Source: Nitrosomonas cryotolerans ATCC 49181
Lineage (GTDB): Bacteria > Pseudomonadota > Gammaproteobacteria > Burkholderiales > Nitrosomonadaceae
DNA: 64,000 nucleotides
Assembly (NCBI RefSeq): GCF_900143275.1
Contig: NZ_FSRO01000001.1
Span: 372,001 to 436,000 of the forward strand
Reading direction: 5' to 3'
This document shows, in pieces, positions 4,510 through 39,981 of this stretch (position 1 is its first letter; the number at the start of each line of letters is the position of its first letter). The translations under genes were made by a program, and so were the position numbers. The notes beneath the pieces are model-generated. The model saw only the letters and a list, made by a program, of their open reading frames with translations. It was not told the DNA's origin and did no database searches.

Positions 4510-5859
4510 ATGAAATACCTAAAGTGGTTATTAAGTGCCATCGCAGGCAGCCTGTTTTTTTTTAATACTTATTCAATGACGCTCTATGCGCATAACCTGA
4601 AGCATCTATTGAAAGACAATCGGATCGCATTGGGTGGTTGGATAAACGGAGGGGTGACTCTTAATCCTAGTCAGAAGAATGGGTTTAATGGTCCGGTGAT
4701 TATGGCGGATCAGGCTAACCGATTTCAGTTAAATCAATTAAATTTGTTTATGCAACGGGCTGTTGTATCAGAAGGTAATACCTGGGATTTTGGTGGGCGC
4801 TTCGATTTTATGTTTGGGACAGATGCTGTTTTTACTCAAGCTTTTGGTGTGCCTACGCTGGATGTAAATTCCGGAAAACCCTTAAAAAGAAGCAATTGGG
4901 ATCTTGATCTGTGCTGTGACTCTTCAAGAACTTATGGAATTGCACTTCCGCAAGCATATCTGGAGGCACATGTTCCTGTCGGTAACGGACTTAACGTCAA
5001 ATTAGGTCATTTCTATAGCCCTATGGGTTATGAGACGGTACCGGCGTCGGCACCGGATAATTTTTTTTATACGCGAGCTTATAACCTGAATGTGGGAGAG
5101 CCCTTTACTCATACTGGTTTGCTTTCGGAATATAAGCTTAATAAAAACTGGTCCATTATCGGCGCAGCGGTTACGGGTAGCGCGAATGGTGGCTGGGATG
5201 GCGGCTGGGACAAACAACTGGGAAACTGGAGTGGGGTGGCTGGTTTTAATTGGACCAGTGATAATCATTTAACTTCGCTTAAAGTTATCGGTAGCTATGG
5301 TGAAACTTCAACACGCAGCAGTGAGCCATGGGCAACGTATAATATTGTGCTGAAACACAGAATTAATCCTAAAACCTCGCTGGCTTTACATCATGTCTGG
5401 GGCTATGCTGGTGGCGTTTTATTGGATAATCCAAAATATACTAACGTCATAAAAGATACGCAATGGATTAATTTAATGGCTTATTTATATTATGACATTA
5501 CGGATAACGTATCGGTAGGTGTGCGCGGTGAATGGTTTCGTGACAGAGATGGCTCCCGCAATCCATCACCCTTTCGCATAGCGGTTACTACCAATATAGT
5601 GAATGGCAAGGCAGTGAGTCCTGCGGGTGATCCTAATCGTGTGACTATTATGCCCGCAGATTATTATTCAACAACCGTGGGCGTAAACTGGAAAGCAGCC
5701 AAGACGCTAAAACTTAAATCGGATTTAATGAGGAAACTAACTATTCGTTCGAATATCCGTTATGATCGAGTAGATGCTTATCACGCGCCTGCGTATAGAC
5801 CTTTTGCCGGGAATAAAGATCAAGTTTTGTTTTCGCTTGATTTTATTCTGCCTTTTTGA
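4510..5859 (+). CDS. Porin-like outer-membrane protein (BBP2/OmpL-like)
   Basis: A 449-residue protein with a signal peptide (MKYLKWLLSAIAGSLFFFNT) followed by a porin-like barrel. The features match the putative beta-barrel porin-2 family: LGGWINGGVTLNP near the start, FGGRFDFMFGTDA, GLNVKLGHFYSPMGYE, NWSIIGAAVTGSANGGW, VSVGVRGEWFRDRDG and a C-terminal FILPF. It is probably a passive channel for small solutes in the outer membrane; the substrate is unknown. I chose ATG 4510 because it starts directly before the signal peptide; the TTG at 4477 would add eleven residues. No transporter or regulator gene is adjacent. Confidence 0.8.
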   Translation: MKYLKWLLSAIAGSLFFFNTYSMTLYAHNLKHLLKDNRIALGGWINGGVTLNPSQKNGFNGPVIMADQANRFQLNQLNLFMQRAVVSEGNTWDFGGRFDFMFGTDAVFTQAFGVPTLDVNSGKPLKRSNWDLDLCCDSSRTYGIALPQAYLEAHVPVGNGLNVKLGHFYSPMGYETVPASAPDNFFYTRAYNLNVGEPFTHTGLLSEYKLNKNWSIIGAAVTGSANGGWDGGWDKQLGNWSGVAGFNWTSDNHLTSLKVIGSYGETSTRSSEPWATYNIVLKHRINPKTSLALHHVWGYAGGVLLDNPKYTNVIKDTQWINLMAYLYYDITDNVSVGVRGEWFRDRDGSRNPSPFRIAVTTNIVNGKAVSPAGDPNRVTIMPADYYSTTVGVNWKAAKTLKLKSDLMRKLTIRSNIRYDRVDAYHAPAYRPFAGNKDQVLFSLDFILPF

Positions 5860-5944
5860 GTGCGCAGATTGGTGTCAGATTATAGGTAGCATGCATTCTT
5901 AAAGTTGTGATCTATTGATCCTGGATTGTACGTTCGTTCGTATC

Positions 5945-6625
5945 TTAGAAGGCGTCCGTTTCAAAAATCGTAATTGGGGCCGAGCTGCGTTGCAATAGCC
6001 AGACAAGTGGGATTTTGGGGTCCAGGGTTTCATTCAATTGATCCAGCAGGCGTCGTTTTGTCATGCCGGTTACGATCAATGCAATATGCTGGCTATCGGC
6101 TAGTGCGGCCAAGCTTAGACTAATGCGAAGTGACGGTGCAATGGGTGTTTCAACAGCAAGGCATAAGGATGTCATCTGCTGGTCGGGATTCATTCCAGGA
6201 AATAGTGACGCAATATGACCATCTTCTCCCAAACCGAGTATCGTTAGGCTGAATGGCCGCGGTATCTTAATGAGGCGTTCATGAATTTCAGTGATTGCTG
6301 CAGAAGGGTGGAGATGATGGGTTTTTAAGCCAATGAAATTCACCTTATCAGTCATCTGTGCTAACAGATATTTCCGTACCAGGTGCTCATTTGAGATGGC
6401 GGTGCGGGTATCTACCCAGCGTTCATCACTCAATGTCACGGTTATTCTGTCCCAGGGCAGTGAATGGCGACCGAGGGTGGGCAGGTAATGGCGAGGGGTG
6501 TTACCGCCAGGAACGACCAGGCTGGCTTTGGGTTGTTTGGCGAGGGTATCTTTTAAAGCAGTCGCCGCAAAATCAGCAAAATCCATTGCCAGGTGGTGCA
6601 TGTTTGAATAGTAATATCTTTGCAT
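5945..6625 (-). CDS. pgl: 6-phosphogluconolactonase
   Basis: A 226-residue sugar-phosphate lactonase of the DevB/Pgl type. It hydrolyses 6-phosphogluconolactone to 6-phosphogluconate in the oxidative pentose phosphate pathway. Visible motifs are LVVPGGNTPRHYLPTL (phosphate loop), TVTLSDERWVD and LTILGLGEDGHIASLFPG with the catalytic region. The ATG at 6625 shares its A with the upstream TGA (TGATG), so the gene is translationally coupled to the HAD phosphatase and is the last member of the leftward operon. That position is unusual for a housekeeping pgl. A role on a sugar lactone of this pathway is possible, but the sequence looks like ordinary Pgl. Confidence 0.9.
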   Translation of the reverse strand: MQRYYYSNMHHLAMDFADFAATALKDTLAKQPKASLVVPGGNTPRHYLPTLGRHSLPWDRITVTLSDERWVDTRTAISNEHLVRKYLLAQMTDKVNFIGLKTHHLHPSAAITEIHERLIKIPRPFSLTILGLGEDGHIASLFPGMNPDQQMTSLCLAVETPIAPSLRISLSLAALADSQHIALIVTGMTKRRLLDQLNETLDPKIPLVWLLQRSSAPITIFETDAF

Positions 6626-7266
6626 CAATTAATCAGCGCACATAAATCAGGCATCGTTTTAACCTGTTCTGGAAAAGGATTTTGATCTCCCGGACAGACG
6701 CGGCCCAGGAATGCGATGCCGTTTTGTTGTGCGCTCTCATAGTCTATCAGTGCATCGCCGATCATTAGAACGGTCTCAGGTACCAGATTATGAGTGGTTA
6801 AAATATCTGCAATCAGGGCTGGCTTAAGCGTAGGTGCGCCGTGTATTGCGGTAAAGTAAGGCGCTAAGCCTCGTCGCGTAACAATAGTTTTAAGTTCGCT
6901 TTCTGGTGTGCCTGAAGCAATAAATAACGGTATTCTGGAGGCTTCTTGGTAAATGAATTCATGCGCGCCGGATACAGCAGCACTGGCAATCACAGCTTCC
7001 ATAACGAGCTCGGAAAAGCGACGATCCAGTGTCTGTTCTTCACTGAGTGTCAGGGGCGGTTTATTCAATAAATGCTGTTGGAAATAACGAAATTTATGAT
7101 AACGGGATAGACCGCCGTGTTGTTGATGATAATGCACAACAGCGGTAACGACTGCGTCACCATAGGAACGATACAGCTCAGCAAAGGCCTGTGTTTTGAT
7201 CTGTCCAGATTCGACGATAACGCCATCAAAGTCAAAAATAATGGCTTGGCAGTTTGATGTTTTCAT
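6625..7266 (-). CDS. HAD-superfamily phosphatase (subfamily IA)
   Basis: A 213-residue haloacid-dehalogenase-like hydrolase. Motif I is IIFDFDGVIVES with the nucleophilic Asp and the acid/base Asp, motif II is FIASGTPE, motif III is the Lys in TLKPALI, and motif IV is MIGDALIDYESA. It has an alpha-helical cap after motif I. It resembles phosphoglycolate phosphatase and sugar-phosphate phosphatases. It starts five bases after the epimerase stop and overlaps pgl by one base. By context it may dephosphorylate a phosphorylated keto-deoxy sugar acid, as KdsC does in the KDO pathway. It is not KdsC itself, which lacks this cap. Confidence 0.85.
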   Translation of the reverse strand: MKTSNCQAIIFDFDGVIVESGQIKTQAFAELYRSYGDAVVTAVVHYHQQHGGLSRYHKFRYFQQHLLNKPPLTLSEEQTLDRRFSELVMEAVIASAAVSGAHEFIYQEASRIPLFIASGTPESELKTIVTRRGLAPYFTAIHGAPTLKPALIADILTTHNLVPETVLMIGDALIDYESAQQNGIAFLGRVCPGDQNPFPEQVKTMPDLCALIN

Positions 7267-7271
7267 GGTCG

Positions 7272-8216
7272 CTATGCTTTATTATCTGAGGTGGAAGGCG
7301 TTGCATCATCATCCTCGCTGGCGTGTTGCGAGTTTTTGTGAATATCCCGAATGCAGTCAAGTAATCCTTGTCCTAAATCAACATGTTCGTTGAGTACCAG
7401 CTTGCGTCCGATTCTCGGCTGAAAGGCATAAGGCGTAATTTCGTAATGATGTACGGTATTCGCTTCGTCAAAATTTAATTCAACCGGCCATGGCATGATT
7501 TCGGAGATCATGGTCATGACATCTCGAATACGTAATCTTTCCTGACCCGTCAAGATCAGATGGCGATTGGCGTATTCTGGCGAGAGTATCTGTACACTCA
7601 TGCGTGCAGCATCTTCAACATGAATATACTCCCGGATTGCATTACCTTCGCCCTGGTAAGTGATTGAATGCTGTTCTATGGCTTCATGTAGCATGCGGTA
7701 AATGCCATTACGTTTATCGGCTCGCCTGCCATATAAAGAGCCATAACGTAAAATATTGTAATTCAGCCCATAACGATCGTGATAAGTTTCGGTAAAGCGT
7801 TCGGCAGCTTGTTTGCTGGCACGATAAAAAGAGCCAGATTCGGAATAAACATAGACACTGCTGGCAAATACAAAGCGACGTGCACCGGCGAGGCGGGCTG
7901 CTTCCAGCGCGTGCATATTACCTAATACATTGATTGTTGCCGTCGCGACGGGTTTATTATGTGCTTCATCGATATCGGCAATTGCTGCAAAATTATAGAC
8001 AATAGCCGCACCTTCGGCTGCTTCGATTACCTGAGTGGAGTTCATAATATCTCCAACAATCATTTCCTGATCTTGTCTTTGATAAGGAGATGGTGTGCGA
8101 TCGAATAATCGTACCTGATAACCTGCGGCAGATAAAGCGTCAGCAACATGGCTACCCAGAAAGCCACTGGCGCCAAATACGACCGCAATTTCAGGCGCCA
8201 TTAATTTATGTGTCAT
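7272..8216 (-). CDS. NAD-dependent sugar epimerase/dehydratase (extended SDR)
   Basis: A 314-residue extended short-chain dehydrogenase. The Rossmann nucleotide motif GASGFLGSHVADAL lies near the N-terminus, with an acidic residue after strand 2 (RLFDR). The catalytic set is FASSVYVY followed by YRASKQAAERF (YxxxK). The C-terminal half binds the nucleotide sugar (NILRYGSLYGRRADKRNGIY). The family interconverts or dehydrates nucleotide sugars in the cytoplasm. The first ATG overlaps the dehydrogenase gene by 11 bases; an internal ATG at 8201 would remove the overlap. The substrate is unknown. Confidence 0.85.
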   Translation of the reverse strand: MTHKLMAPEIAVVFGASGFLGSHVADALSAAGYQVRLFDRTPSPYQRQDQEMIVGDIMNSTQVIEAAEGAAIVYNFAAIADIDEAHNKPVATATINVLGNMHALEAARLAGARRFVFASSVYVYSESGSFYRASKQAAERFTETYHDRYGLNYNILRYGSLYGRRADKRNGIYRMLHEAIEQHSITYQGEGNAIREYIHVEDAARMSVQILSPEYANRHLILTGQERLRIRDVMTMISEIMPWPVELNFDEANTVHHYEITPYAFQPRIGRKLVLNEHVDLGQGLLDCIRDIHKNSQHASEDDDATPSTSDNKA

Positions 8217-10973: not shown

Positions 10974-12239
10974 ATGAAGGCCCTTTTCTTTCTTCGTCAT
11001 TATAACGATATTGATCATATTACCCCGATCATTTTTAAGTGGATTGATTCGGGCCACCAGTGTGATGTTGTTTTGATTGGTTCTGTAAAATTCCGTAACG
11101 ATTTTCGTATTGAATTCTTAAGCAAACTGAATGGTGTCCGCGTTGCACATGTCCGTGAACTGTTTTCGCCCCTGGAATATATCAAATGGCGATTACAGAT
11201 GCTTTTGCTGACGGGAAATCTGAGACGTTTGTTTATTGGCCCATTCGTTCGTGTATTAGCGGATGTCTATCATGCAAGGCGCCGTGATCCTCTGTGGCGG
11301 CGCACCGCTAATCGATTACTAACAAGAAGCTTTGAAAAGAATGATGGTGGTGTGATTGCCTTTGATTGGATTGAAAGAAACTCAGTAATTTGTGTCGAAT
11401 GGGTTGAAGTTGTCGTGATGATGGCGCATAACATGGGACTGAGCGCTGTATCGCTTCCGCATGGTGACAGCCCGCATGCTAATCAGTTAATCCGTCGTGG
11501 TGAGCGGCGCCTTGAACCCGATACTTTGTTTTCCACGGCCCGAATATTCGATAAGCTTGTGGTACCTAATGAATTATGTGCCAAGCGTTTTCGTCCTTTT
11601 CTAGATGAATCGGCGTTAGCCGTACTTGGGTCGCCGCGTTACTGTGAAGAATGGTTAATTCAATTGGCTGAATTACTGCCACCCTCACCGTTAACGCGCT
11701 CAGATAGCCAACTCAAAATCGTTTTATTCTTAAGAAAAGCTAATTTCACGACATTCTGGGAAGAAGTTTCTGAAATAGTGCACATGATTGCCGCTTTTCC
11801 AGGAATAGAGTTGGTGATAAAGCCGCATACTCGTAGTGGTTGGAAACAATCACTGACTAAGGATAGTTCAATAAGACGGCTGTCTAACGTGACGATAGCG
11901 GGTGAAGATATGCATTCTGTACATCTAATGAATTGGGCAGATGTCACGATTGATCTGGCCACGTCGGTTGTATTTGAGGCCGTGAGAGCAGGGAAACCCG
12001 TATTGGCGGCGGATTATTTGCATGCCGGGCGTTCTGCCATTGCGGTATATATGCCTGAAACAGAACTGAGATGCCGGGATGATGTATACGAGAAAATTGA
12101 TTATTTTCTATCCCATGGGTGCGATTCTTTTTATATTGAAGCCCATCGCCAGCGCTTTCTCAGGGAAATGCTGGATGTTCCAGACCAGAATGTGTTACCT
12201 CGTTACGTAGCGCTGTTAGAGAGCGCGGCTAGGATATGA
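10974..12239 (+). CDS. GT-B-like surface carbohydrate transferase, copy A
   Basis: A 421-residue protein, one of a tandem pair with the gene at 13125. It has a Rossmann-like N-terminus MKALFFLRHYNDIDHI, a central SLPHGDSPHANQL, then a second lobe with IVLFLRKANF, LVIKPHTRSGWKQS and DLATSVVFEAVRAGKP. The last two resemble the acceptor/donor motifs of CDP-glycerol and Kdo-type GT-B transferases of surface polysaccharides. The start is the ATG at 10974, which aligns with copy B; the GTG two codons earlier is less likely. Identity to copy B is about 70% by eye. It probably adds a residue, perhaps the sugar acid of the neighbouring operon, to a lipid-linked glycan. The substrate is unknown. Confidence 0.65.
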   Translation: MKALFFLRHYNDIDHITPIIFKWIDSGHQCDVVLIGSVKFRNDFRIEFLSKLNGVRVAHVRELFSPLEYIKWRLQMLLLTGNLRRLFIGPFVRVLADVYHARRRDPLWRRTANRLLTRSFEKNDGGVIAFDWIERNSVICVEWVEVVVMMAHNMGLSAVSLPHGDSPHANQLIRRGERRLEPDTLFSTARIFDKLVVPNELCAKRFRPFLDESALAVLGSPRYCEEWLIQLAELLPPSPLTRSDSQLKIVLFLRKANFTTFWEEVSEIVHMIAAFPGIELVIKPHTRSGWKQSLTKDSSIRRLSNVTIAGEDMHSVHLMNWADVTIDLATSVVFEAVRAGKPVLAADYLHAGRSAIAVYMPETELRCRDDVYEKIDYFLSHGCDSFYIEAHRQRFLREMLDVPDQNVLPRYVALLESAARI

Positions 12240-12306
12240 TCGTTGTGCAAAACATATCGCCTGGTTGGATCGTAAACTCCATTTAATCACTATAGACTGC
12301 GATAAC

Positions 12307-13074
12307 ATGATGCGATTACAAAATATATTTAAAAATCTTGTAATCGCAGCTTATAAAATTGGAGGTGGATGTACAAATATTAAAGTCAGGGGGCAGTCCA
12401 TACTGGTTTCGATAGACCATTGGCGAGTTCTTAAACGAGCAAAGACATACTCTATAAAAGAACCGGATACGCTTGACTGGATAGATAATTTCAGACCTGA
12501 TTCGTGTTATTTTGATATTGGTGCAAATATCGGCCAGTATTCCCTGTATCCGGCTAAGAAATATGGTCAAAGTATTCAAATTTATGCTTTTGAGCCTCAG
12601 AGCAATAATTATTATTCGCTAAATAAGAATATTTCGCTAAATAAGCTGACGAAAAATGTCACGCCCTACTGTGTTGCGATATCCGGACAGAGCCAGTTTT
12701 CCAGATTGTATATACCCAAATTTATTCCTGGCGGGAATCGCTCCCAATTTGGAAAAGAAGATGCTGAGAATATGAAAATACCGGCTAGTCATATTCAAGG
12801 TATGTTTGGCGTGACGCTGGATGATCTGTGCGATAAATGGGGGTTTCCTTATCCGGACTATATTAAAATTGATGTAGATGGCATTGAGATCGCTATTCTC
12901 AAAGGAGCAAAGCGTGTATTAGCGCATCCGGATCTAAAATCTGTTATTGTCGAATTGGGAACACCGCAGGAACAGAAAGAAGCGATCTTTCTGATGAAAG
13001 AAGCTGGTCTGATTATAAAACAAAAAACAATGCAGAACTGGGGTGAAACGTGCTTTATATTTGAAAAAATTTAG
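12307..13074 (+). CDS. FkbM-family methyltransferase
   Basis: A 255-residue SAM-dependent methyltransferase. Motif I is CYFDIGANIGQYSLYPAKK, followed by IYAFEPQSNNYYSL (acidic end of strand 2) and the FkbM signature KIDVDGIEIAILKGA. FkbM enzymes O-methylate hydroxyls of sugars and polyketides. Here, between two transferase copies, it probably methylates a surface glycan residue. ATG 12307 or 12310 is the likely start; the TTG at 12265 lacks support. The gene is more AT-rich than the flanking transferases, which suggests separate acquisition and insertion between the duplicated pair. Confidence 0.85.
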   Translation: MMRLQNIFKNLVIAAYKIGGGCTNIKVRGQSILVSIDHWRVLKRAKTYSIKEPDTLDWIDNFRPDSCYFDIGANIGQYSLYPAKKYGQSIQIYAFEPQSNNYYSLNKNISLNKLTKNVTPYCVAISGQSQFSRLYIPKFIPGGNRSQFGKEDAENMKIPASHIQGMFGVTLDDLCDKWGFPYPDYIKIDVDGIEIAILKGAKRVLAHPDLKSVIVELGTPQEQKEAIFLMKEAGLIIKQKTMQNWGETCFIFEKI

Positions 13075-13124
13075 CGCACATGCGTGTTCATTTCTGATTC
13101 TGCTTATTATGAACCGCAAGTAAT

Positions 13125-14393
13125 ATGAAAGCACTTTTTTTTCTTCGCCATTATAACGATATCGATCATATTGTACCGGTTATTTCCGAATGGGTGCACT
13201 CTGGCCATCATTGTGATGTGGTGATAATCGGAAAAGCAGGATTTATCAAGGACTTTCGTATTGAGTTTTTGAAAAAATTGGACGGGGTTCGTGTCATTCA
13301 TATTCGTCAACTGCTTTCCCTCATGGAGTTTATGCGGTGGCGATTGCAAATGTTATTGTTAGTTCGTAGTTCGCATCATTCTTTCATGGGGCCGCTTATT
13401 AAGTTATTGGCCGAAATCTATGATTCTAAAAGGCGTGGACTGATCTGGCACCGAACTGCTCGATATTTATTTGAATATGGTTTTAAAGAGGGACAGCAGG
13501 GTGTTATTGTCTTCGACTGGATTGAAAGGAACTCAGCAATCTGCGTTGAGTGGGTTGAAGTGGTGGTGGCGATGGCCCGTACTAGAGGATTGGGAACCGT
13601 ATCGTTGCCTCATGGTGACAGTCCTCATGCCAGTCAACTGATTCGACACGGAGAGTGGCGCCTCCAACCTGATATTTCATTCTCTGCTGCAGGAATGTTC
13701 GATCAGGTTGTGGTACCAAATGAATTGTGTTCCAAGCGCTTCCGTCCGTTTCTGGATGCCAGAAAAATAGCAATATTGGGTTCACCGCGCTATTGTGATG
13801 AGTGGTTAGCGAGATTGGCGTTGTTGTTACCACCTTCGCCATTGGTACGTTCTGATAGTCGTCTTAAGATAGCTATATTTCTGAGAAAGGCGAATTTCAC
13901 AACTTTCTGGGAAGAAGTCGAAGAAATGGTAAGGATGATCGCTGCTTTTCCGGGAGTAGAGTTGATGATCAAACCACATACACGTGGCGGCTGGAAACAA
14001 TCCTTAACCAAAAGTACTGTATTGAGGCGTTTGCCAAATGTGACTATGGCGGATGATGGCATCCACTCTACTCATTTGATGAACTGGTCGGATGTTATTA
14101 TTGACTTAGCCACGTCGGTTGTATTTGAGGCAGTGAAGGCAAGTAAGCCTGTTCTGGCAGCGGACTATTTGCATGCGGGTCGTTCCGCGCTTGCCGAATT
14201 TATGCCTGAAACCGCATTGCACTGCCGAGATGATGTATACGAAAAAATTGATTATTTCCTATCCCATGGTTGTGATGTCTTTTATATTGAAGCGCATCGT
14301 CAGCGCTTTCTCAGAGAAATGCTGGATGTTGGAGGGACAGATGTTTTACCTCGTTACGTTAGCTTATTGGAAATGCAAACCCGGAAAGAATAA
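13125..14393 (+). CDS. GT-B-like surface carbohydrate transferase, copy B
   Basis: A 422-residue tandem paralogue of the gene at 10974. It keeps all blocks seen there: N-terminal MKALFFLRHYNDIDHI, SLPHGDSPHASQL, FLRKANFTTFWEEVEEM, MIKPHTRGGWKQS, DLATSVVFEAVKASKP and YFLSHGCDVFYIEAHRQRF. Divergence is concentrated in residues about 65-130, where acceptor specificity could differ. Conservation of the duplicate, rather than decay, suggests two distinct transfer steps or two linkages. Activity is inferred from the fold-like motifs only. Confidence 0.65.
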   Translation: MKALFFLRHYNDIDHIVPVISEWVHSGHHCDVVIIGKAGFIKDFRIEFLKKLDGVRVIHIRQLLSLMEFMRWRLQMLLLVRSSHHSFMGPLIKLLAEIYDSKRRGLIWHRTARYLFEYGFKEGQQGVIVFDWIERNSAICVEWVEVVVAMARTRGLGTVSLPHGDSPHASQLIRHGEWRLQPDISFSAAGMFDQVVVPNELCSKRFRPFLDARKIAILGSPRYCDEWLARLALLLPPSPLVRSDSRLKIAIFLRKANFTTFWEEVEEMVRMIAAFPGVELMIKPHTRGGWKQSLTKSTVLRRLPNVTMADDGIHSTHLMNWSDVIIDLATSVVFEAVKASKPVLAADYLHAGRSALAEFMPETALHCRDDVYEKIDYFLSHGCDVFYIEAHRQRFLREMLDVGGTDVLPRYVSLLEMQTRKE

Positions 14394-30541: not shown

Positions 30542-30634
30542 TGTTTATTTTTAAGTGAGTGAAATGGCTTATTTTAAGTCTAAAGAAACTGACTGAATTT
30601 TGGGTATTGATAAAGTAAAGAATAAGGAGTGATT

Positions 30635-31402
30635 ATGTTTGGGCTGCGTCAGATCTGTACTACTGTTTTAAAACTAGGGGTAGGGGCCATTCTTTTTATA
30701 CTGAGTACACATATTGCAAGTGCGACTATTACGCTATTTTTTGATAGTACCAGTTCGTCTAGTAATACCCCAGCAACAGGTGCTTCCGCCAAGGCTGAAT
30801 TTTTGTTTAGTGATGACGGCAGTGGGGGAGTTAAAATTGATTTGCTGTTTACCAATACAACGGGTGCCATTCCAGTCTTTGGATCAGGTGCGACTGAATC
30901 CAAGCTGACAGGCATTGGTTTTGATTTGATTAGATTAAACACGGGTATTACCACCTTTGTTTCGGGAACGCATCTTAATACGCTGATACTGACGCCAACG
31001 CTTCCTCCATTTGAATCATTCGATATCGGCATTGCTGATAATGCCAACTTTCTTGGAGGCAATGCAAATGCGGCTCTCCCTCAAGGTAGTACGGATACTG
31101 CTAGCTTTATTCTAATTGGTAGTGGTCTCACTGCCGCCGTGTTGGAAGACGAATTTTTCGATGGTTTTTCTACTGGTTCACTGGGCTACGTAGCGCGTTT
31201 TCAACAAGTAAATGGAAGCGGAGCTGACAGCGATAAATTACTCGGTGGTACTGCTACTTGTGACAGTTGTGGCTTTGTTCCCCCGCCTCCACCCCCAGTG
31301 GCTATTGCAGAACCCGCAACGCTTGCATTATTTGGTTTAGGCCTGTTAGGTATTGGCGTGGTGCGCCAAGCGCGGTTAAAAGCAGGTTATCTGGTTAGAT
31401 AA
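30635..31402 (+). CDS. PEP-CTERM sorting domain protein
   Basis: A 255-residue exported protein. Signal peptide VGAILFILSTHIASATI, a Ser/Thr/Gly-rich beta-type body with few charges, a Pro stretch (FVPPPPPPVAI), then the sorting tag EPATLALFGLGLLGIGVVRQ followed by basic residues. The tag is the target of exosortase, which cleaves it and releases the protein to the cell surface or matrix. AAGGAG sits seven bases before ATG 30635. No exosortase gene is in the window. Function beyond surface display is unknown. Confidence 0.88.
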   Translation: MFGLRQICTTVLKLGVGAILFILSTHIASATITLFFDSTSSSSNTPATGASAKAEFLFSDDGSGGVKIDLLFTNTTGAIPVFGSGATESKLTGIGFDLIRLNTGITTFVSGTHLNTLILTPTLPPFESFDIGIADNANFLGGNANAALPQGSTDTASFILIGSGLTAAVLEDEFFDGFSTGSLGYVARFQQVNGSGADSDKLLGGTATCDSCGFVPPPPPPVAIAEPATLALFGLGLLGIGVVRQARLKAGYLVR

Positions 31403-31467: not shown

Positions 31468-31554
31468 GAGACCTTTGCAAAAGCCCTTACCAGAATTTCT
31501 ACTATTGATTATGAAGGGTTGATTTTTTAACTATTGGGCTTTTGCAAAGGTCTC
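31468..31554. mobile_element. MITE-like element, copy A (87 bp)
   Basis: Begins and ends with a perfect 19-bp inverted repeat, GAGACCTTTGCAAAAGCCC and its complement. It has no coding capacity and its interior closely matches the element at 52511-52599. The right end is only 11 bp from the next gene's ATG. Confidence 0.85.
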
Positions 31555-31565
31555 CATCAATATTT

Positions 31566-32336
31566 ATGACTGCTCTTCGCTTGGTCCTGGGTAATAAGCC
31601 AGATTGGACTACTCGTATGATTCCGTTACTTACGTCGGATTTTGAAGTTGCCAGTACCTTGCTCAAAATCGATCATGCTGAATGGGCTGATATCGTTGTT
31701 CCGCTTCATCTATCCGATTATGAAATCTTACGCGCTACGTCACTATTTCAAGGTAAGGCACTATTTCCAGCGCCTGAAACAGTGGCGCTTTGCCATGATA
31801 AAAGGCGCTTCAGAGACTGGTTCAGAACTCACTTCGATCCTGTTTATCTACCTGCGCAGACAGTCCCGGGTTCAGGACTCTTGATTGCCCGGCCCTGTGA
31901 AAGTGAATGGGGTGTTGGTGCGGTACTCGTCGAGTCGAATCAGCAGGGCGGGTTGGTGTGTTCTTATGCGGATTCTGACATGTTTACTGAAGAGTATATT
32001 ACGGGCCATACGGAGTTTGCGCAGCACGTCTTGTTTGACGATGGACATGTGCTGTATTCGGCGTTGTCGACATATGAACATGCGGCAGATCGCTATGTGC
32101 GTGGTGTGGGTTGCGGTCCAACGCGTACCACGCTCGTCGAAACCGATATTATTCCATCGATTTTTGTTGCCATTCTTAGTGAGTTGAATTATTCAGGGAC
32201 GGCCTGTATTGATTATAAAATCGATGCAACCGGCCAAATCAAAATTTTTGAAATCAATCCTCGTATGGGGGGAAGTCTTGCCGGACTGGCGCATTCCTAT
32301 GTTGCAACGTATGCAGGTTACCTGCGGTACTATTGA
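31566..32336 (+). CDS. ATP-grasp domain protein
   Basis: A 256-residue compact ATP-grasp protein. The N-terminal part has WADIVVPLHLSDYEILRAT and CHDKRRFRDWF; the C-terminal half has CIDYKIDATGQIKIFEINPR followed by MGGSLAG, the typical Mg-ATP-binding end (D..E.NPR). ATP-grasp enzymes join a carboxylate to an amine, thiol or similar group. At 256 residues it is shorter than usual carboxylate ligases (350-450), and the acceptor is unknown. The longest frame starts inside the MITE; ATG 31566 is the natural start. The MITE insertion has probably replaced its promoter region. Confidence 0.75.
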   Translation: MTALRLVLGNKPDWTTRMIPLLTSDFEVASTLLKIDHAEWADIVVPLHLSDYEILRATSLFQGKALFPAPETVALCHDKRRFRDWFRTHFDPVYLPAQTVPGSGLLIARPCESEWGVGAVLVESNQQGGLVCSYADSDMFTEEYITGHTEFAQHVLFDDGHVLYSALSTYEHAADRYVRGVGCGPTRTTLVETDIIPSIFVAILSELNYSGTACIDYKIDATGQIKIFEINPRMGGSLAGLAHSYVATYAGYLRYY

Positions 32337-32543
32337 GCAGGAGACTGTTTTGAGGCCATCATTCTGCCTGGCTCGCATGGTCATTAACAGTCACTGATAC
32401 AATAAAAAAATTTAATTTTAGATGTCGCCGGAATAGTTCTATCAGCTTATCTAACGTGCGCTCGCTTGTTTATTGGCTTTGTATAGCCAGTGGCTGTTTC
32501 TGTTATGCGCTTTGTATCATGACATAATGAGAATAAGGTTTTG

Positions 32544-34838
32544 ATGCATTTCCTGAGGCTATTCTGCGTAGGATTCAGTATGTTGCGTTTATTTAAACGG
32601 CTTGTCTTGGGTTTGTGCGTAGGTCTGTTCGGAGTCATGATAGCGCTGGCACCATTCGGCCTGGCTCTTGAGGAACAATTTGGTTTACCCGGGTTATTTT
32701 ATCTACGTGGAGCCATTTCCTCACCCGATGATGTGGTTGTGGTTGCAATAGATCAGCGCTCAGCCCGTCATTTGAATCTGCCGCTTAATCCCCGTTCCTG
32801 GCCGCGCGACTTACATGCCCGTTTAATTGAAAGGCTTACAGAAGCGGGTGCCGGTGTTATTGTTTTTGATCTGATATTTGATACCCATGGCAATGTTCCC
32901 GCACATGATGCGGCGTTAGCTCAGGCAATGGCAGCGGCCCGTAATGTGGTGTTAGTTGAAAGGCTGAGCTCCGAGGATGTTGAGTTATTGATGGAGCCAT
33001 CCGATCAGGCTCAGTATAAGATTACACAAGAAGGGACTATTCAGCCGATACCGATTATTGCAGATGCTGCATTAGTCTGCGCGCCATTTCCTTTACCCAA
33101 ATTATCTCGAGTAAACGGCTATTGGGCTTTCAAAGCAGGTGCCGGAGATATGCCGACATTACCGGTGGCCGCATTGCAGGTTTTTGCATTGCCTGTTTAT
33201 GCGGATTTTACCCGCTTGCTTGCTCATAACAGTCCCGGCTATACAGAACAATTAGTCGTTAACTCCGCTGCACCGGATATCGAAGCATTACTTTTTACGT
33301 TACGCAATATGCTGGTTAATGTGCCAGGGCTGGCGCAGAAGATGTTGGTAGAATTACAGCGTAATACAAGCCTGAATGCAGATACCAAACGCATGCTTAG
33401 GGCGCTCATCAGCGCATATGTGGGTACTGAAATACGCTATCTGAATTTTTATGGTCCGCCCCGTAGTGTGCGGACAATACCTTATTACCAGTTGGTACAG
33501 TCGGCTACTGACCCTGCTGCCCTGAATGATGCTTTTGAATCGATTTTTAAAGGTAAGGCGGTTTTCATCGGGTTTTCAGCTGAAACACAATCGGGCCAGG
33601 ACAGAATAAGAGATGATTACCATACGGTGTTTCCTGGTGCCGACGGATTGACCATGAGTGGTGTTGAGATAGCTGCAACCGCTTTTGCCAATTTGCTGGA
33701 GAATAAGCCTATCAAACCTGTGTCGTTGATAGTCGGTTTAAGTATACTTTTTTTATTAGGTGTTGTGATGGGCGCCGCCTTTCTTATGTTGTCCAATCGT
33801 AGTGGCGCATTCGTGGTCATCGTATTGATCCTTATTTATGTTGGCCACGCATACTATCAATTTGAAGCGATGGGTCTTTGGCTGCCGCTCATTATTCCAC
33901 TTTTTCTACAAATGCCGCTTGCTTTATTTGGTGCAGGATTATTGAAATATGTCGCCGCAAGGCGGGAGGGTAAACAAGTCAAGGATGCATTTGGCTATTT
34001 TCTGCCTGAGCGGGTGGTTAATGATATCGCGAAGAGTGCGGGTAAAGTGAGTGCCAACACGCAATTGGTTTATGGTGTTTGCTTAGCAACGGATGCGGAT
34101 AAGTATACGACACTGGCGGAGAGAATGAGCCCTCGGCAATTGAGCCAGCTTATGAATGACTATTACGCGGTCTTATTTGAACCGGTAAGAAAACAGGGCG
34201 GTATTGTTTCCGATGTGGTGGGTGATGCCATGTTTGCGATATGGGCCCCGCCTTTTTTAGATGCTGACTTGCGTAAACAAGCGTGTCTGGCTTGCCTCGA
34301 TATTGTCGCCGCTGTGGCACATTTTAACCAGATAAATAGTGAGATGCAGCTACCTACTCGGGTGGGTTTACATTTTGGTGAAATCTTATTAGGTAATGTT
34401 GGTGCACTGCATCATTATGAATATCGGGCGGTTGGGGATATCGTCAATACAACCAGTCGTATTCAGGGTGTCAACAAGTATCTGGGAACGAATGCGTTAT
34501 TATCGAGTGAAGTCATTGTGGGTCAGGCTGATTTTTTAACGCGCCCCCTTGGAAATTTTTTACTGGCGGGTAAGTCATCTGTAGTCAACCTGTCAGAGCT
34601 GGTTGCGCATAAGCAGACCGCGAGTTATGAGCAGTACTGGCTATGTGAACGTTTTACTCACGCCTTGCAGGCGTATGAACTAAAAAAATGGAACGAGGCA
34701 TCCAGTGGCTTCCTGGAAATTCTTGACATCTTTCCAGCGGACGGTCCGGCTCGGCTTTTTCTGAATGATAGTCTGCAATATGAGGCTTCGCCACCGCCTG
34801 AATCATGGTTTCCTGTCATGCGGATAGACGGTAAATGA
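32544..34838 (+). CDS. CHASE2-domain class III nucleotidyl cyclase
   Basis: A 764-residue membrane sensor cyclase. Order: one N-terminal membrane segment, a periplasmic CHASE2 domain (residues about 35-390, with VVVAIDQRSARHL, GAGVIVFDLIFDTHG and GKAVFIGFSAET), three membrane segments (about 395-470) and a cytoplasmic cyclase domain (about 505-690). The two metal Asp are in CLATDADKY and VVGDAMFAIW; the transition-state Asn and Arg are in VNTTSRI. The purine-recognition Lys seen in usual bacterial enzymes (VDKxxGD) is Asp here (VSDVVGD), and the partner position before GDxVN is Arg. A C-terminal TPR-like segment follows. ATG 32544 or 32580 are both possible starts. It should make cAMP or another cyclic nucleotide, perhaps sensed by the Crp-like protein downstream. 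Confidence 0.88.
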   Translation: MHFLRLFCVGFSMLRLFKRLVLGLCVGLFGVMIALAPFGLALEEQFGLPGLFYLRGAISSPDDVVVVAIDQRSARHLNLPLNPRSWPRDLHARLIERLTEAGAGVIVFDLIFDTHGNVPAHDAALAQAMAAARNVVLVERLSSEDVELLMEPSDQAQYKITQEGTIQPIPIIADAALVCAPFPLPKLSRVNGYWAFKAGAGDMPTLPVAALQVFALPVYADFTRLLAHNSPGYTEQLVVNSAAPDIEALLFTLRNMLVNVPGLAQKMLVELQRNTSLNADTKRMLRALISAYVGTEIRYLNFYGPPRSVRTIPYYQLVQSATDPAALNDAFESIFKGKAVFIGFSAETQSGQDRIRDDYHTVFPGADGLTMSGVEIAATAFANLLENKPIKPVSLIVGLSILFLLGVVMGAAFLMLSNRSGAFVVIVLILIYVGHAYYQFEAMGLWLPLIIPLFLQMPLALFGAGLLKYVAARREGKQVKDAFGYFLPERVVNDIAKSAGKVSANTQLVYGVCLATDADKYTTLAERMSPRQLSQLMNDYYAVLFEPVRKQGGIVSDVVGDAMFAIWAPPFLDADLRKQACLACLDIVAAVAHFNQINSEMQLPTRVGLHFGEILLGNVGALHHYEYRAVGDIVNTTSRIQGVNKYLGTNALLSSEVIVGQADFLTRPLGNFLLAGKSSVVNLSELVAHKQTASYEQYWLCERFTHALQAYELKKWNEASSGFLEILDIFPADGPARLFLNDSLQYEASPPPESWFPVMRIDGK

Positions 34839-34891
34839 ATGCATTATAGTCCATTGTCGCAACTCAGCGCTGCTTCATGTTCTTAATCGTA

Positions 34892-35004
34892 AAAGACCGC
34901 TGCATAACTGTGTTTTTGAACTTTTCTGATCACTTGTAGCATTGATAAATCAAACACTTAAAAATCTTTCCCAGCCCGAAATACCCAGTTATGCAGCGGT
35001 CTTT
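34892..35004. mobile_element. Palindromic MITE-like element (113 bp)
   Basis: A perfect 19-bp inverted repeat AAAGACCGCTGCATAACTG at 34892-34910 with its complement at 34986-35004, enclosing 75 AT-rich bases with no ORF. The ends look like transposon termini. No clear target duplication was found. It separates the cyclase from the FecR/TPR/barrel gene. Confidence 0.7.
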
Positions 35005-35187
35005 CGAATAAAATCAGGGTAGGGCGCAATGCATAGAATATCCGTTCTGGTATTAGGGATAAGCATCTCGTATAATGAACTGAATAGATTGCGTATACCA
35101 GATTCTCCGGTTTTGTTGGGTTCTTCCGGGTGCTGGAAGGTGGGAGTGGGTCGTATTCGCCTTTCGATTTGGGTTGAATCATAGAAG

Positions 35188-38100
35188 ATGAGAAATGAGA
35201 GCGTGCTGGAAGCGTATGTCGAAGTTGGGGTGTTGCAGAGTATCAATCAGGGTGTTTGTGCTTATTACGGGGTTTTTTTATTATTTTTTCTGAGTGATGT
35301 TTTTGCTGCAAGGTCTTGTGTATCAGTAGTCGCCCGGGTTGTTTCAACGCAGGGCACTGTAGAATTACGGCATGCGAGCGATACATATTGGCAGCCTGCT
35401 GAGATGAATGCTGTACTGTGCGCCGGTGATAGGGTGCGTGTTCGTGCGCGAAGCCGTGCTGCTCTGCGCTTGACTAATGAAAGTATGCTCAGGTTGGATC
35501 AGAAGACGGCCATTACTTTTCCTGAACTGGAAGAAGAGGCGGCTATTTCTCTGATTGATCTATTGAAAGGTGCGATACATATTCTGACGCGCACACCCAT
35601 GCCGTTTAAGGTCACAACTCCCTTTGTTAATGCAGGCGTAGATGGAACAGAATTTTCTGTACGGGTTGATGATGACAGCACGCAACTCGTCATTTATGAG
35701 GGGCGGGTATCAGTCAATAATGATCAAGGCCAGCTGAGGCTTCTCGAGCATGAATCGGCAATTGCGGTCAGAGATCAGGCGCCGCAGAAAGTTGCCCTGG
35801 TTAATCCAAGCGAGGCTGTTCAATGGGCCTTATATTATCCGACAGTGATTGATTATCGGTTGGACCAGGCGGTTTCCACTGAGCCCGCCGTATTAACCGA
35901 GATCAGCAGCGCGATTGCGTTTTATCAGCGGGGTCAGTTGACCGCAGCACTCCTGCAGCTCGATCGCGTGCCACAAGATAAACGTACTGCACGCTTTCTG
36001 ACTTTTTATGTCAGTCTTTTGTTGTCTATTGGGCGGGTCGATGAAGCGCGGGCCGGTATTGAGCAAGTACTCAAGCTTGAGCCGGACAACAGCGATGCGC
36101 ATGCATTGCAGGCCATGATTGCGATTGTACAAAACGAAAAGGCTGCCGCTTTGCGCTTCGCTACTCAGGCTGTGGCATTCAATCGCCTCTCTCCGGCTGC
36201 ACACATTGCGCTTTCCTACGTTCAGCAAGCCAATTTCGAAATCAGCGAAGCACTTGAAAGTGTTCAGAGGGCAGTTACATTGGATTCTGAAAATGCACTG
36301 GCCTGGGCGCGACTGGCTGAATTACAGATGGCAATGGGCGAACCGGATTATGCTTTGGCCGCTGCACAACAGGCGGTCAGTTTAAATCCCAATCTGGCTA
36401 AAACACAAACGGTATTAGGATTTGCACATTTACTGCAAATTGATACTGTGGCTGCCAGACAAGCTTTTATCCGGGCGATCGCGTTCGACCAGGCGGATCC
36501 CCTGCCAAGACTGGGGCTAGGGCTGGCGCTGACGCGCGAAGGCCATCTTGAGGCCGGGCGCATTGAGCTGGAAATTGCCGTGAGCCTTGATCCAGCCAGT
36601 TCATTGATACGCAGTTATCTGGGTAAAGTCTATTTTGAGGAAAAACGCTATGGGCTGGCCAGCACTCAATTTGACCTGGCTAAAAAAAGTGATCCCCAGG
36701 ATCCCACGCCGTGGCTTTATGATGCCATTCAGAAGCAGACACAAAATCGACCGGTGGAAGCATTGCAGGATTTGCAAAGATCAATTGAGTTGAACGCTAA
36801 CCGGGCTGTGTATCGTTCACGGCTGCTGCTTGATCAGGATCAGGCTGCGCGGGGTTCCAGCCTGGCCCGTATTTTTGATAATCTGGGCTTCGAAAAACGC
36901 GCTTTAGTAGAAACAGCCAGCGCCCTGAGTTTGGATCCTGGCAATCATTCGACGCACCGATTTCTTTCAGATATATATACGCATATTCCGCGACATGAAA
37001 TTGCTCGGGTGAGCGAGCTATTACAAGCACAACTTTTGCAGCCGATTAATGTTAACCCGGTGCAGCCTCGTTTAGCCGTGGCTGATCTCAATATCATCAC
37101 GGGTACCGGACCCGCAATAGTGGGTTTTAATGAATTCACGCCATTAGTTGAGCGTAATCGACCACAATTAGTTGCATCCGGGATTGTGGGGAGTCATGAA
37201 ACGCTAGGAGATGAAGTGGTTGCTTCTGCGGTATACGATCGTGCCTCGATCAGCATGGGCCAATTTTATTATCGGACAGATGGGTTTCGCCCAAATAATG
37301 ATCAAAAACACCACGTCTATAATGCCTTCTTGCAATATGCCGTAACGCCCCGGTTTAATATTCAGGCGGAGGTGCGCACACACAAAGCGGCACATGGTGA
37401 TTTATTGCTGGATTTTAATCACAATGCGTTTAAAAAAGATCAGCGCCGTGAACTGATGCAGGATATGGCCCGTATGGGCGCAAACTACAAGCTGTCATCA
37501 AAGCAGAGCCTGATTGCTTCAGCTGCCTATACGTATCGCAGGGAGAATCAAAGGGAATCCTTTGGTCCTGCTAACAGTTTTAACGAAATACTCAAGGATC
37601 AAGGTTATCAGGTTGAGGCTCAATATCTGTATCGAGATCAGCTGGTTAACGTTACGATGGGCGCGGGTACCTATGAAATAGCCGCCAACAGTCAGATACG
37701 CACGGATTTAATGCTCCCCAATGGACCCATATCCAATCAAACGGCGCACGATTTTATGCGGGAACGGCGTAATGGTTATATTTACACGAATTTTAATTAT
37801 TTTAGTGACTTAAGTACGACACTGGGTTTGAGTTATGATGCATTCAAAGAAGATGGCGGATTCGAAATCAAGAAATTTAATCCAAAAATCGGCTTACAGT
37901 GGAGTATTTTGAGTAATTTACGTTTAAGATTAGCGCTTTTTGAAACAGTCAAGTCATCTTTAATCGCGAATCAAACAATTGAACCGACTCAGGTGGCGGG
38001 ATTTAATCAAATGTTTGATGATGTTAATGGGACCAGAGCGCAGCGTAAAGGCTTCGGTCTTGATGCACGGATTACCCATCATATTTTCAGTGGTATTGAA

Positions 38101-38601
38101 GTGTCATCGCGTGATTTAAAGGTGCCAATTATCACGCAACACATAATGGAAAATCAGAAAGAGAAACTATATCGTGCCTATCTCTATTGGCTACCGCATC
38201 CATTTTGGGCAATCAAAGGTGAAGCGCAGTTTGAAAAATTTATGCGCCAGCCGGATCTCTCCAGTACAGAGCCGAATCGGATTGAGACATTGAGTGCACC
38301 TGTGGCTATTCAGTATTTTAATCCGCATGGTCTGTTCGCGAAACTGACAGGAACTTATGTCCGGCAGGAATTGGAGCGTCAGGGACGTATAGAAAATGCG
38401 GGCATCGATCATTTTTTCTTGTTTGATGCAACGTTGGGTTATCGATTTCCAAACCGGATGGGGATGCTGAGTCTGGAAGGCAGAAATCTTCTGAACGATC
38501 ACTTCTTTTTTAGGAATGTCAATTTTCAGCTATCTGAGGCGATGAGCCCTCGATTCATCCCTACCCGTACTATTTTTGCAAGACTGACTTTAAATTTTTA
38601 G
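35188..38601 (+). CDS. FecR/TPR/outer-membrane beta-barrel fusion protein
   Basis: A 1137-residue exported protein with three parts. After a signal peptide (YYGVFLLFFLSDVFAA) comes a FecR-type domain (residues about 50-180: QGTVELRH, AGDRVRVRARSRAALRL, LLKGAIHILTRTPMPF, VTTPFVNAGVDGTEFSV). Next is a TPR array (about 240-590: repeated A.AL.LEP motifs such as QVLKLEPDNSDAHAL). The last 510 residues are beta strands ending in FARLTLNF, a barrel with terminal Phe. It has no plug-type TonB box. It probably sits in the outer membrane with FecR and TPR in the periplasm. Neighbours are a CHASE2 cyclase upstream and a Crp regulator downstream. The function is not known. Confidence 0.85.
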   Translation: MRNESVLEAYVEVGVLQSINQGVCAYYGVFLLFFLSDVFAARSCVSVVARVVSTQGTVELRHASDTYWQPAEMNAVLCAGDRVRVRARSRAALRLTNESMLRLDQKTAITFPELEEEAAISLIDLLKGAIHILTRTPMPFKVTTPFVNAGVDGTEFSVRVDDDSTQLVIYEGRVSVNNDQGQLRLLEHESAIAVRDQAPQKVALVNPSEAVQWALYYPTVIDYRLDQAVSTEPAVLTEISSAIAFYQRGQLTAALLQLDRVPQDKRTARFLTFYVSLLLSIGRVDEARAGIEQVLKLEPDNSDAHALQAMIAIVQNEKAAALRFATQAVAFNRLSPAAHIALSYVQQANFEISEALESVQRAVTLDSENALAWARLAELQMAMGEPDYALAAAQQAVSLNPNLAKTQTVLGFAHLLQIDTVAARQAFIRAIAFDQADPLPRLGLGLALTREGHLEAGRIELEIAVSLDPASSLIRSYLGKVYFEEKRYGLASTQFDLAKKSDPQDPTPWLYDAIQKQTQNRPVEALQDLQRSIELNANRAVYRSRLLLDQDQAARGSSLARIFDNLGFEKRALVETASALSLDPGNHSTHRFLSDIYTHIPRHEIARVSELLQAQLLQPINVNPVQPRLAVADLNIITGTGPAIVGFNEFTPLVERNRPQLVASGIVGSHETLGDEVVASAVYDRASISMGQFYYRTDGFRPNNDQKHHVYNAFLQYAVTPRFNIQAEVRTHKAAHGDLLLDFNHNAFKKDQRRELMQDMARMGANYKLSSKQSLIASAAYTYRRENQRESFGPANSFNEILKDQGYQVEAQYLYRDQLVNVTMGAGTYEIAANSQIRTDLMLPNGPISNQTAHDFMRERRNGYIYTNFNYFSDLSTTLGLSYDAFKEDGGFEIKKFNPKIGLQWSILSNLRLRLALFETVKSSLIANQTIEPTQVAGFNQMFDDVNGTRAQRKGFGLDARITHHIFSGIEVSSRDLKVPIITQHIMENQKEKLYRAYLYWLPHPFWAIKGEAQFEKFMRQPDLSSTEPNRIETLSAPVAIQYFNPHGLFAKLTGTYVRQELERQGRIENAGIDHFFLFDATLGYRFPNRMGMLSLEGRNLLNDHFFFRNVNFQLSEAMSPRFIPTRTIFARLTLNF

Positions 38602-38615
38602 AAGGAGACACAAAA

Positions 38616-39113
38616 ATGCAGGCTGTTATTATTTTTTTAATCGGAACAATAGGGTTGAGTGGTTATTCATTAGAAGTCAATAGTCAGAATACGCTCACTG
38701 TAGCGCCGAAGTCGGGTTTGTCTGGGGAGCATCTGCAAAATCCAGACCTGCCATGTAGATCCGTAGAACGCAATTCAGATAAAACTAAAATTGACCGCAC
38801 TAGCAGAATTTCGGCAGCGTGTCATGATGGGGCTGTCAAGACGTTACCCAAGGAAACTGAGGGTGTGGTAGCAAAAACAGCCGATGTGGGAGACATCGCA
38901 TATATTCTGGTTGTTGGCAGAGATGGTGAGGCGAGTGTATTAAGACCCAATGCCGCGAAATCTTCCAGAGTCTATAAAGCGGGTGATGTGATTCCGAATA
39001 AGGGAATTATGAGTGTTGATTCAATCAGTGTTGTAACCTATCAAGGCTCTCACTGCGTCGGTTCTACATTTAGGTACGTTAGTGGCGGAAATATCTATGA
39101 AATTTGTTATTAG
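38616..39113 (+). CDS. Small exported protein of unknown function
   Basis: A 165-residue protein with a hydrophobic N-terminus (MQAVIIFLIGTIGLSGYSL) likely to be a signal peptide, a low-complexity polar middle and a C-terminal region with VGDIAYILVVGRDGEASVLR, SVVTYQGSHCVGSTFRYVSG and a final ICY. Four cysteines could form disulphides. GAAGGAGA lies before the ATG, 14 bases after the FecR/TPR/barrel stop, so it is co-transcribed with it. No family recognised. It could be a partner or ligand of the barrel protein. Confidence 0.7.
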   Translation: MQAVIIFLIGTIGLSGYSLEVNSQNTLTVAPKSGLSGEHLQNPDLPCRSVERNSDKTKIDRTSRISAACHDGAVKTLPKETEGVVAKTADVGDIAYILVVGRDGEASVLRPNAAKSSRVYKAGDVIPNKGIMSVDSISVVTYQGSHCVGSTFRYVSGGNIYEICY

Positions 39114-39258
39114 CCTGTGCTTAATCTGTTCACTGACTGATTACAGGCTGTGCTGAGAAGAGTTGTCTGTCAACTGGACGATGACGGCTCAGCATGGCTG
39201 ATCAATCTTATTGGTAGAAGAAGTATGCGGCCTGGAAAAAAACAGATAAAGATAATCT

Positions 39259-39981
39259 ATGAGTATACGACACATACCAGCTGAACGGGCTAGCGCAATG
39301 CTCTCGATTGTGAAGGAATTTCAGGGCCTTTCTTTGATAGAGTTGAAAGGAGTGGCGCAGGTGTGCTGCTGGCATCGTTATTCAGCCGGTGAAGCGATTG
39401 TTAGGTATCATGACAGCACAAATAGTGCTTTTCTTGTTATCCAGGGTGAAATTCGTGTTACTTACCATGCTTTGTCAGGTCATGAGGTGATTTTGTGTGA
39501 CTTGTCAGCAGGTGAAATGTTTGGCGAGTTGACTGCGATCGATGGTCGTACCCGGTCTGCAACGGTAGTGGCTAAAACGGATTTATTGCTGGCATCCATG
39601 CCTGCACCGGCCTTCCTGGATCTGGTTTGTTCGAATCGAAAAATATCTGAGGCAATATTGAAGCGATTAACTGAGCAAGTGCGGCGTCTTACTGAGCGTG
39701 TATATGATTTTAGTACACTGGCGGTATGTAACCGGATTCATGCCGAATTATTGCGCCTTGCAAGAGATCATCTTGTGACGCCTAATAGCGCCGTCATTTC
39801 ACCTGCGCCGACGCATTCTGAAATTGCCAATTTGGTTAGCACTCATCGTGAAGCCGTCACGCGTGAGTTGAATAATTTGGTTAGAAAGGAATTGATTGAG
39901 CGCAGAGGCCAGGACCTGCATATATTGGATATATCGAAGTTGACTGAAATGCTCAATGAAGTGCGGGGCACTTTAAAATAG
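39259..39981 (+). CDS. Crp/Fnr-family transcription regulator
   Basis: A 240-residue regulator. The N-terminal cNMP domain has SAGEMFGELTAIDG and RTRSATVVAKTD, so the FGEL and RSA residues that hold the phosphate and ribose of cAMP in Crp are present. The C-terminal winged helix has HSEIANLVSTHREAVTRELN, matching Crp's RETVGR recognition helix. It has no Fnr-type cysteines. It is predicted to bind cAMP (or a related cyclic nucleotide) and a TGTGA-like half site. Position 7 kb... downstream of the cyclase start and directly after the barrel genes suggests it reads the cyclase signal. Confidence 0.9.
   Translation: MSIRHIPAERASAMLSIVKEFQGLSLIELKGVAQVCCWHRYSAGEAIVRYHDSTNSAFLVIQGEIRVTYHALSGHEVILCDLSAGEMFGELTAIDGRTRSATVVAKTDLLLASMPAPAFLDLVCSNRKISEAILKRLTEQVRRLTERVYDFSTLAVCNRIHAELLRLARDHLVTPNSAVISPAPTHSEIANLVSTHREAVTRELNNLVRKELIERRGQDLHILDISKLTEMLNEVRGTLK

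Follow-up and report, generated by a model that had tools for sequence, protein, structure and literature searches.

A CHASE2 cyclase and FecR-TPR-barrel receptor locus of Nitrosomonas cryotolerans whose barrel and adjacent small gene are exchanged together in relatives

The locus and its genes

The 64,000-nucleotide stretch of the Nitrosomonas cryotolerans ATCC 49181 genome analysed here (positions 372,001 to 436,000 of contig NZ_FSRO01000001.1, hereafter the window) carries on its + strand, in this order, the genes for a CHASE2 class III nucleotide cyclase (P0001), a FecR-TPR-barrel outer-membrane receptor (P0002), a small exported protein (P0003) and a Crp-family regulator (P0004). An earlier note on this DNA had placed these four genes together on one strand, and open reading frames and Pfam matches confirmed this. 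The features are as follows, in window coordinates.

32541..34838, + strand: CHASE2 class III nucleotide cyclase P0001 (Pfam, residue alignment), with CHASE2 at about 32694-33758 and the catalytic domain at about 34089-34478
34892..35004, no strand: miniature inverted-repeat transposable element (MITE)-like element with 26-bp inverted arms, between the cyclase and barrel genes
35188..38601, + strand: FecR-TPR-barrel outer-membrane receptor P0002, 1137 amino acids (Pfam, AlphaFold2, Foldseek), with FecR at about 35428-35709, TPR helices at about 35806-36816 and a predicted 22-strand barrel at about 37165-38592
37255..39113, + strand: variable cassette, comprising the barrel from about residue 690 and the small gene and swapped as a unit in relatives, with an approximate 5' limit and no fixed 3' limit
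38616..39113, + strand: small exported protein P0003, 165 amino acids, with a hydrophobic N-terminus
39259..39981, + strand: Crp-family regulator P0004 (cNMP_binding, E=8e-19; HTH_Crp_2)

The cyclase matched CHASE2 (E=2e-30) and Guanylate_cyc (E=6e-10) in Pfam, and its alignment with homologs suggests that the true start is the ATG at 32580 rather than 32544. The receptor matched FecR (E=3e-17), TPRs and TonB_dep_Rec_b-barrel (E=3e-11), and the gene for P0003 begins 14 bp past the barrel-gene stop. Genome-wide, we counted one CHASE2 gene, two class III cyclases, three FecR domains and four cNMP-binding proteins. The gene arrangement is far beyond chance, because the sole CHASE2 gene adjoins the sole FecR-TPR-barrel gene of the genome and because the pair recurs across the family. 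The MITE-like element is about 113 bp long and has about 41 copies in the genome at roughly 89-95% identity; since it lies between the cyclase and barrel genes, a single transcript of all four genes is not assured. On the 5' side of the cyclase are a gene for a PEP-CTERM protein and a weak ATP-grasp-like gene (30629-31402 and 31542-32336), which give no sign of belonging to the module.

Linkage of cyclase, receptor and Crp regulator

Relatives of the locus came from alignment of the barrel protein; a scan of genome contigs with the single cyclase sequence returned none. The resulting sample comprised 83 barrel genes in 77 named loci, and for 73 of these genes at least 1.5 kb of upstream sequence was available. 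The cyclase was immediately 5' of the barrel gene in 46 of the 73 and anywhere in the locus in 53, so that the conserved adjacency which the earlier note had proposed to look for was indeed found. The barrel protein is present in about 31 of 36 genomes of the same genus at 52-63% identity, and its closest relatives are from Nitrosomonas, Nitrosospira and Nitrosovibrio. More distant carriers with a cyclase upstream include a member of the Nitrospirales (L158) and a deltaproteobacterial metagenome-assembled genome (MAG; L157). The barrel genes of L157, L158 and L159, from deltaproteobacterial and Nitrospirales/Nitrospiraceae MAGs, are about 46% identical, possibly reflecting transfer between nitrifiers or a binning error.

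Sequence identities were then correlated over the 42 loci having both the cyclase and the barrel gene (861 pairs). CHASE2 identity followed FecR identity (rho 0.84) more closely than that of the catalytic domain in the same protein (0.68), and the CHASE2-FecR correlation persisted when the catalytic and TPR parts were held constant (partial rho 0.60; permutation maximum 0.41, 0/499), while the partial correlation between the catalytic domain and FecR was -0.11. Because the catalytic DNA sits between CHASE2 and FecR, this signal is not due to distance alone. The co-variation therefore supports, short of proving, a contact of FecR with the CHASE2 domain, and backs the earlier suggestion that the two communicate.

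The best bacterial match of P0004 in the PDB is Clr of Sinorhizobium meliloti (7pza). The regulator had been credited with cAMP-binding residues, and this held for the phosphate and sugar pocket, where Gly89, Glu90, Arg99 and Ser100, corresponding to the Clr positions that hold phosphate and sugar, are invariant among 31 orthologs. At the base contacts, P0004 has L144-T145 at Clr T140-T141, so that the first base-contact threonine (T140) is Leu144. In a survey of genomes of the genus, the Crp ortholog tracked CHASE2 cyclases and not other cyclases. Four genomes (G001, G012, G021 and G035) have other class III cyclases and are missing CHASE2, the barrel gene and the Crp ortholog alike; in two (G020 and G028) the Crp ortholog is retained and the CHASE2 cyclase is the sole class III cyclase; and one (G023) that lacks a barrel gene has the Crp ortholog together with a different CHASE2 cyclase. 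A check of 11 genomes for class I cyclases detected none. This co-occurrence supports the view that the regulator belongs with the CHASE2 cyclase. Sites of the E. coli Crp type were not in excess in the window (27 vs. 31 expected by chance), and autoregulation is therefore unsupported.

In the cyclase alignment, the metal residues Asp518 and Asp562 and also Arg640 are invariant, and Asn636 is conserved. The base-selecting pair of P0001 is D558/R629, which is non-canonical, an acidic residue at the first of these positions being usual in the genus; the second class III cyclase of the genome (C1:2384112) carries the canonical Lys/Thr. Given D558/R629 in the cyclase and L144-T145 in the regulator, the nucleotide is not nameable from sequence. 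The Gly preceding the second metal Asp is also altered in two relatives (L064 and L071).

The barrel and its adjacent small gene

The AlphaFold2 model of P0002 (mean predicted local distance difference test score, pLDDT, 75) has 22 barrel strands and no plug, with FecR placed after an N-terminal hydrophobic helix, and Foldseek matched it to TonB-dependent receptors including FecA and PqqU. A Pfam scan found no Plug domain in P0002, though the same scan detects Plug in L045:3019-5070, a TonB-dependent receptor gene (Plug and barrel) directly upstream of the cyclase in that locus. A gene of similar length occupies the same place in L060, L061, L064, L065, L070 and L072, the domain scan having covered L045 alone. 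Conservation in P0002 is highest in the linker that precedes the barrel (SELLQAQLLQPINVNP...GFNEFTPL), at residues ~560-660 (window ~36865-37167), which is of low confidence in the model and might close the plug-less barrel. The VIA-align rows for the barrel protein were TPR proteins and uninformative on the barrel or FecR.

Behind most barrel genes, the small gene begins 10-21 bp past the stop, usually after a Shine-Dalgarno-like sequence. Twenty-seven small proteins of our first set form one family by BLAST, which is hypervariable, with no Pfam or NCBIfam match and with a C-terminal domain containing two invariant cysteines (C147 and C164 in P0003). When 61 genomes were searched with the family profile, all matches at E<1e-8 lay at these loci, in 26 of the 61 genomes and in this genus only. 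P0003 is at most 25% identical to most of its relatives, compared with about 57% for P0002, and its AlphaFold2 model is weak (mean pLDDT 66, predicted template modelling score, pTM, 0.35) and without a PDB match. By a simple rule for calling export forms, 24 of 71 small proteins are lipoproteins and 19 carry a signal peptide or membrane anchor.

The small protein varies with the barrel. Over 71 loci, small-protein similarity correlated with that of the barrel at rho 0.44 and with that of the FecR-TPR half at 0.05, and the partial correlation with the barrel was 0.44 (0/499 permutations). This co-variation has a step near residue 680-720 of the receptor (median change point at residue 696, 29 pairs) and is more pronounced with the barrel's outer half (partial 0.34 vs. 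0.12). When the small proteins were divided into 14 classes, 13 changes were needed on the barrel tree, which is the minimum, compared with 21 on the FecR-TPR tree and about 34 on either tree after the classes were shuffled; looser cut-offs of 0.85 and 0.9 gave 17 and 14 changes on the barrel tree (minima 15 and 11) and 27 on the FecR-TPR tree.

A corresponding boundary is seen in the DNA, where homology ends at nucleotide 1865-2124 of the barrel gene in 7 locus pairs. Homology runs from the cyclase to about nucleotide 2034-2124 and is then lost across the barrel and the small gene, the break at nucleotide 1865 belonging to the L113/L131 pair; in L138/L152, strong homology returns further downstream, and L129/L147 have the reverse pattern, with a common barrel side and a differing upstream side. 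Tandem copies in one MAG (L134) are 100% identical in FecR-TPR, with barrels 42% identical and unrelated small proteins. In the AlphaFold2 model, the exchange boundary falls just past the strands that begin the barrel. By these sequence patterns, the small gene is linked to the barrel rather than to FecR or the cyclase, and the two are swapped as a unit while FecR-TPR and the cyclase stay constant; barrel and adjacent small protein thus co-diversify by cassette exchange, as a polymorphic ligand-receptor pair would. In the literature, we found no published role for such a small protein, no system with a swapped barrel-partner pair and nothing on a Nitrosomonas FecR or cyclase of this kind. One cyclase-less barrel copy (L047, genome G006) is followed by a 1003-amino-acid RTX-like gene and preceded, on the same strand, by a TIR-nSTAND1-FGE gene (4786-7797 and 11331-14171).

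Interpretation and comparison with known systems

Taken together, we favour, at somewhat better than even confidence, the interpretation that the locus encodes a receptor cyclase of the type of S. meliloti NsrA whose barrel has its own encoded cognate partner, exchanged along with it. The outer-membrane barrel would bind something at or near the cell surface, and its state would travel along the periplasmic TPR arm to FecR, which may contact CHASE2 of the inner-membrane cyclase and so alter cyclic-nucleotide output; the Crp regulator would read the nucleotide and alter transcription. The small exported protein would act as the cognate partner of the barrel, most likely as an endogenous ligand or a ligand-controlled lid, and strains would swap barrel and partner as a single cassette, with cyclase, FecR and TPR as the unchanging chassis. 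In this scheme the gene content, the linkage, the co-occurrence of Crp, the FecR-CHASE2 and barrel-small-protein co-variation and the exchange boundary come from the sequence data, while signal direction, physical contact, the identity of the nucleotide and an activating or blocking role of the partner are inferred.

Several observations weigh against this interpretation. No cyclase lies directly upstream of the barrel gene in 27 of the 73 cases, some of which are second copies in tandem arrays, and the Crp ortholog is inside the fetched locus in just 19 of 54, lying elsewhere in other genomes. The base-selecting pair of the cyclase is non-canonical, and 28 of the 71 small proteins have no evident export signal, which is awkward for a secreted ligand. 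Further, the permutation tests leave some shared ancestry in the co-variation results, and since barrel and small gene adjoin, their co-inheritance is no proof of binding.

Some of the sequence evidence would suit a barrel through which the small protein is exported or displayed, in the manner of TPR-barrel translocators, with FecR-CHASE2 reporting cargo passing or docked and no external ligand involved. A TPR arm and a plug-less barrel beside a variable, often lipidated partner gene, together with the co-variation of the two, fit such a channel, whereas the 22 predicted strands resemble a TonB receptor and gave no Slam-type match, the signal received by NsrA is a protein from outside (PMC7529298), and those 28 partners have no signal that would take them into the periplasm; we consider a channel unlikely. 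We also judge it unlikely that the barrel is a sensor of external molecules, like NsrA with uL2, whose diversity comes from pressure by phages or the environment, with the small gene only a hitchhiker or accessory chaperone in the exchanged block. NsrA needs no such partner gene, the small proteins vary widely (that of L047 in G006 is even RTX-like) and adjacency alone could yield co-inheritance, but the near-constant spacing of 10-21 bp, the exact congruence of the 14 small-protein classes with barrel clades and the closer co-variation with the barrel's outer half all speak against it.

The regulator raises a separate question, namely whether Crp answers to a different cyclase or ligand and the four genes do not form a single pathway. 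The second class III cyclase with its canonical residues, the unusual D558/R629 pair and the lack of excess Crp sites would be in keeping with this; however, the Crp ortholog is retained in the single-cyclase genomes G020 and G028 and missing from those whose class III cyclases are all of non-CHASE2 type, and class I cyclases were absent from the 11 genomes, making a separate Crp quite improbable.

Returning to a receptor cyclase with an encoded partner, a tentative and rather doubtful extension is kin- or self-recognition among ammonia-oxidising bacteria, in which a surface barrel and a secreted or released small protein, matched within each strain and switched in type by swapping the cassette, would recognise one another and signal this to the cell as a cyclic nucleotide via FecR-CHASE2 and Crp. 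The exchangeable cassette suggests that receptors of this kind can come with a strain-specific partner encoded alongside them, which would provide nitrifiers with a candidate system for recognition between cells whose output is a cyclic nucleotide. The CHASE2-FecR co-variation offers a testable contact for barrel-to-CHASE2 signalling.

The earlier note knew of no described pathway with this logic, a claim that does not stand. In S. meliloti, NsrA and CyaK are required to perceive a protein signal, with uL2 as candidate, and the CHASE2 cyclases CyaK, CyaD1 and CyaD2 work via the Crp-family Clr in a pathway demonstrated by genetics (PMC7529298, PMC13001267, citing Garnerone 2018). The present locus likewise combines a FecR, TPR and barrel protein, an adjacent CHASE2 class III cyclase and a Crp-family effector, and NsrA, annotated as a FecR-domain protein, aligns with our family profile over FecR and TPR only (hhalign 99.3%, E=5e-20). 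By contrast, nsrA precedes and overlaps cyaK, so that the gene order is reversed, the cyclases are only about 24-26% identical, the base-selecting residues of CyaK are canonical (Lys/Ser), Clr lies outside the fetched nsrA-cyaK locus and no small partner gene follows nsrA. In Campylobacterota, a CHASE2 cyclase is again clustered with a FecR-domain outer-membrane protein, and its authors proposed one pathway (PMC9239204); there, TPR is in a separate protein, a phosphodiesterase is included and no exchangeable barrel-partner cassette is reported. The Burkholderia BiofilmReg operon also pairs a periplasmic FecR protein (LysM-FecR) with a CHASE2 sensor, in this case a histidine kinase with two-component output, without barrel or cyclase (PMC5192318). 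Because of these three precedents, a relay from barrel-FecR through CHASE2 and a cyclic nucleotide to Crp is of an already existing kind.

Other known systems are matched in part. The FecA/FecR/FecI system shares the FecA-like 22-strand barrel fold and a periplasmic FecR domain, but here FecR is fused to the barrel via TPRs, there is no plug or sigma factor, the output is a cyclase, and the neighbours are the cyclase, the small protein and Crp, unlike the Fec-type sigma/anti-sigma arrangement, in which FecR has a cytoplasmic anti-sigma part and an ECF sigma factor beside it. Nor is P0002 a canonical TonB-dependent receptor, having the predicted 22-strand barrel and no N-terminal plug. Slam (type XI secretion) joins TPRs to a barrel of 14 strands vs. 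the 22 predicted here, next to the gene of an exported substrate; no Slam-family match was obtained, although an adjacent partner gene is present. Pycsar defence, in which a cyclase adjoins a cyclic-nucleotide-gated effector, is rejected, as PADLOC matched only the shared catalytic and cNMP-binding folds, with no TIR or membrane effector. ComQXP and Agr are polymorphic signal-receptor loci, in which, as here, a variable part of the receptor diversifies jointly with the small protein next to it while the signalling chassis stays constant; unlike in those loci, an outer-membrane barrel and a cyclase replace the inner-membrane kinase, and the ligand role is putative. Set beside all of these, the logic of the relay is known, and the part for which we found no publication is the role of the barrel-linked small protein that is exchanged with the barrel.

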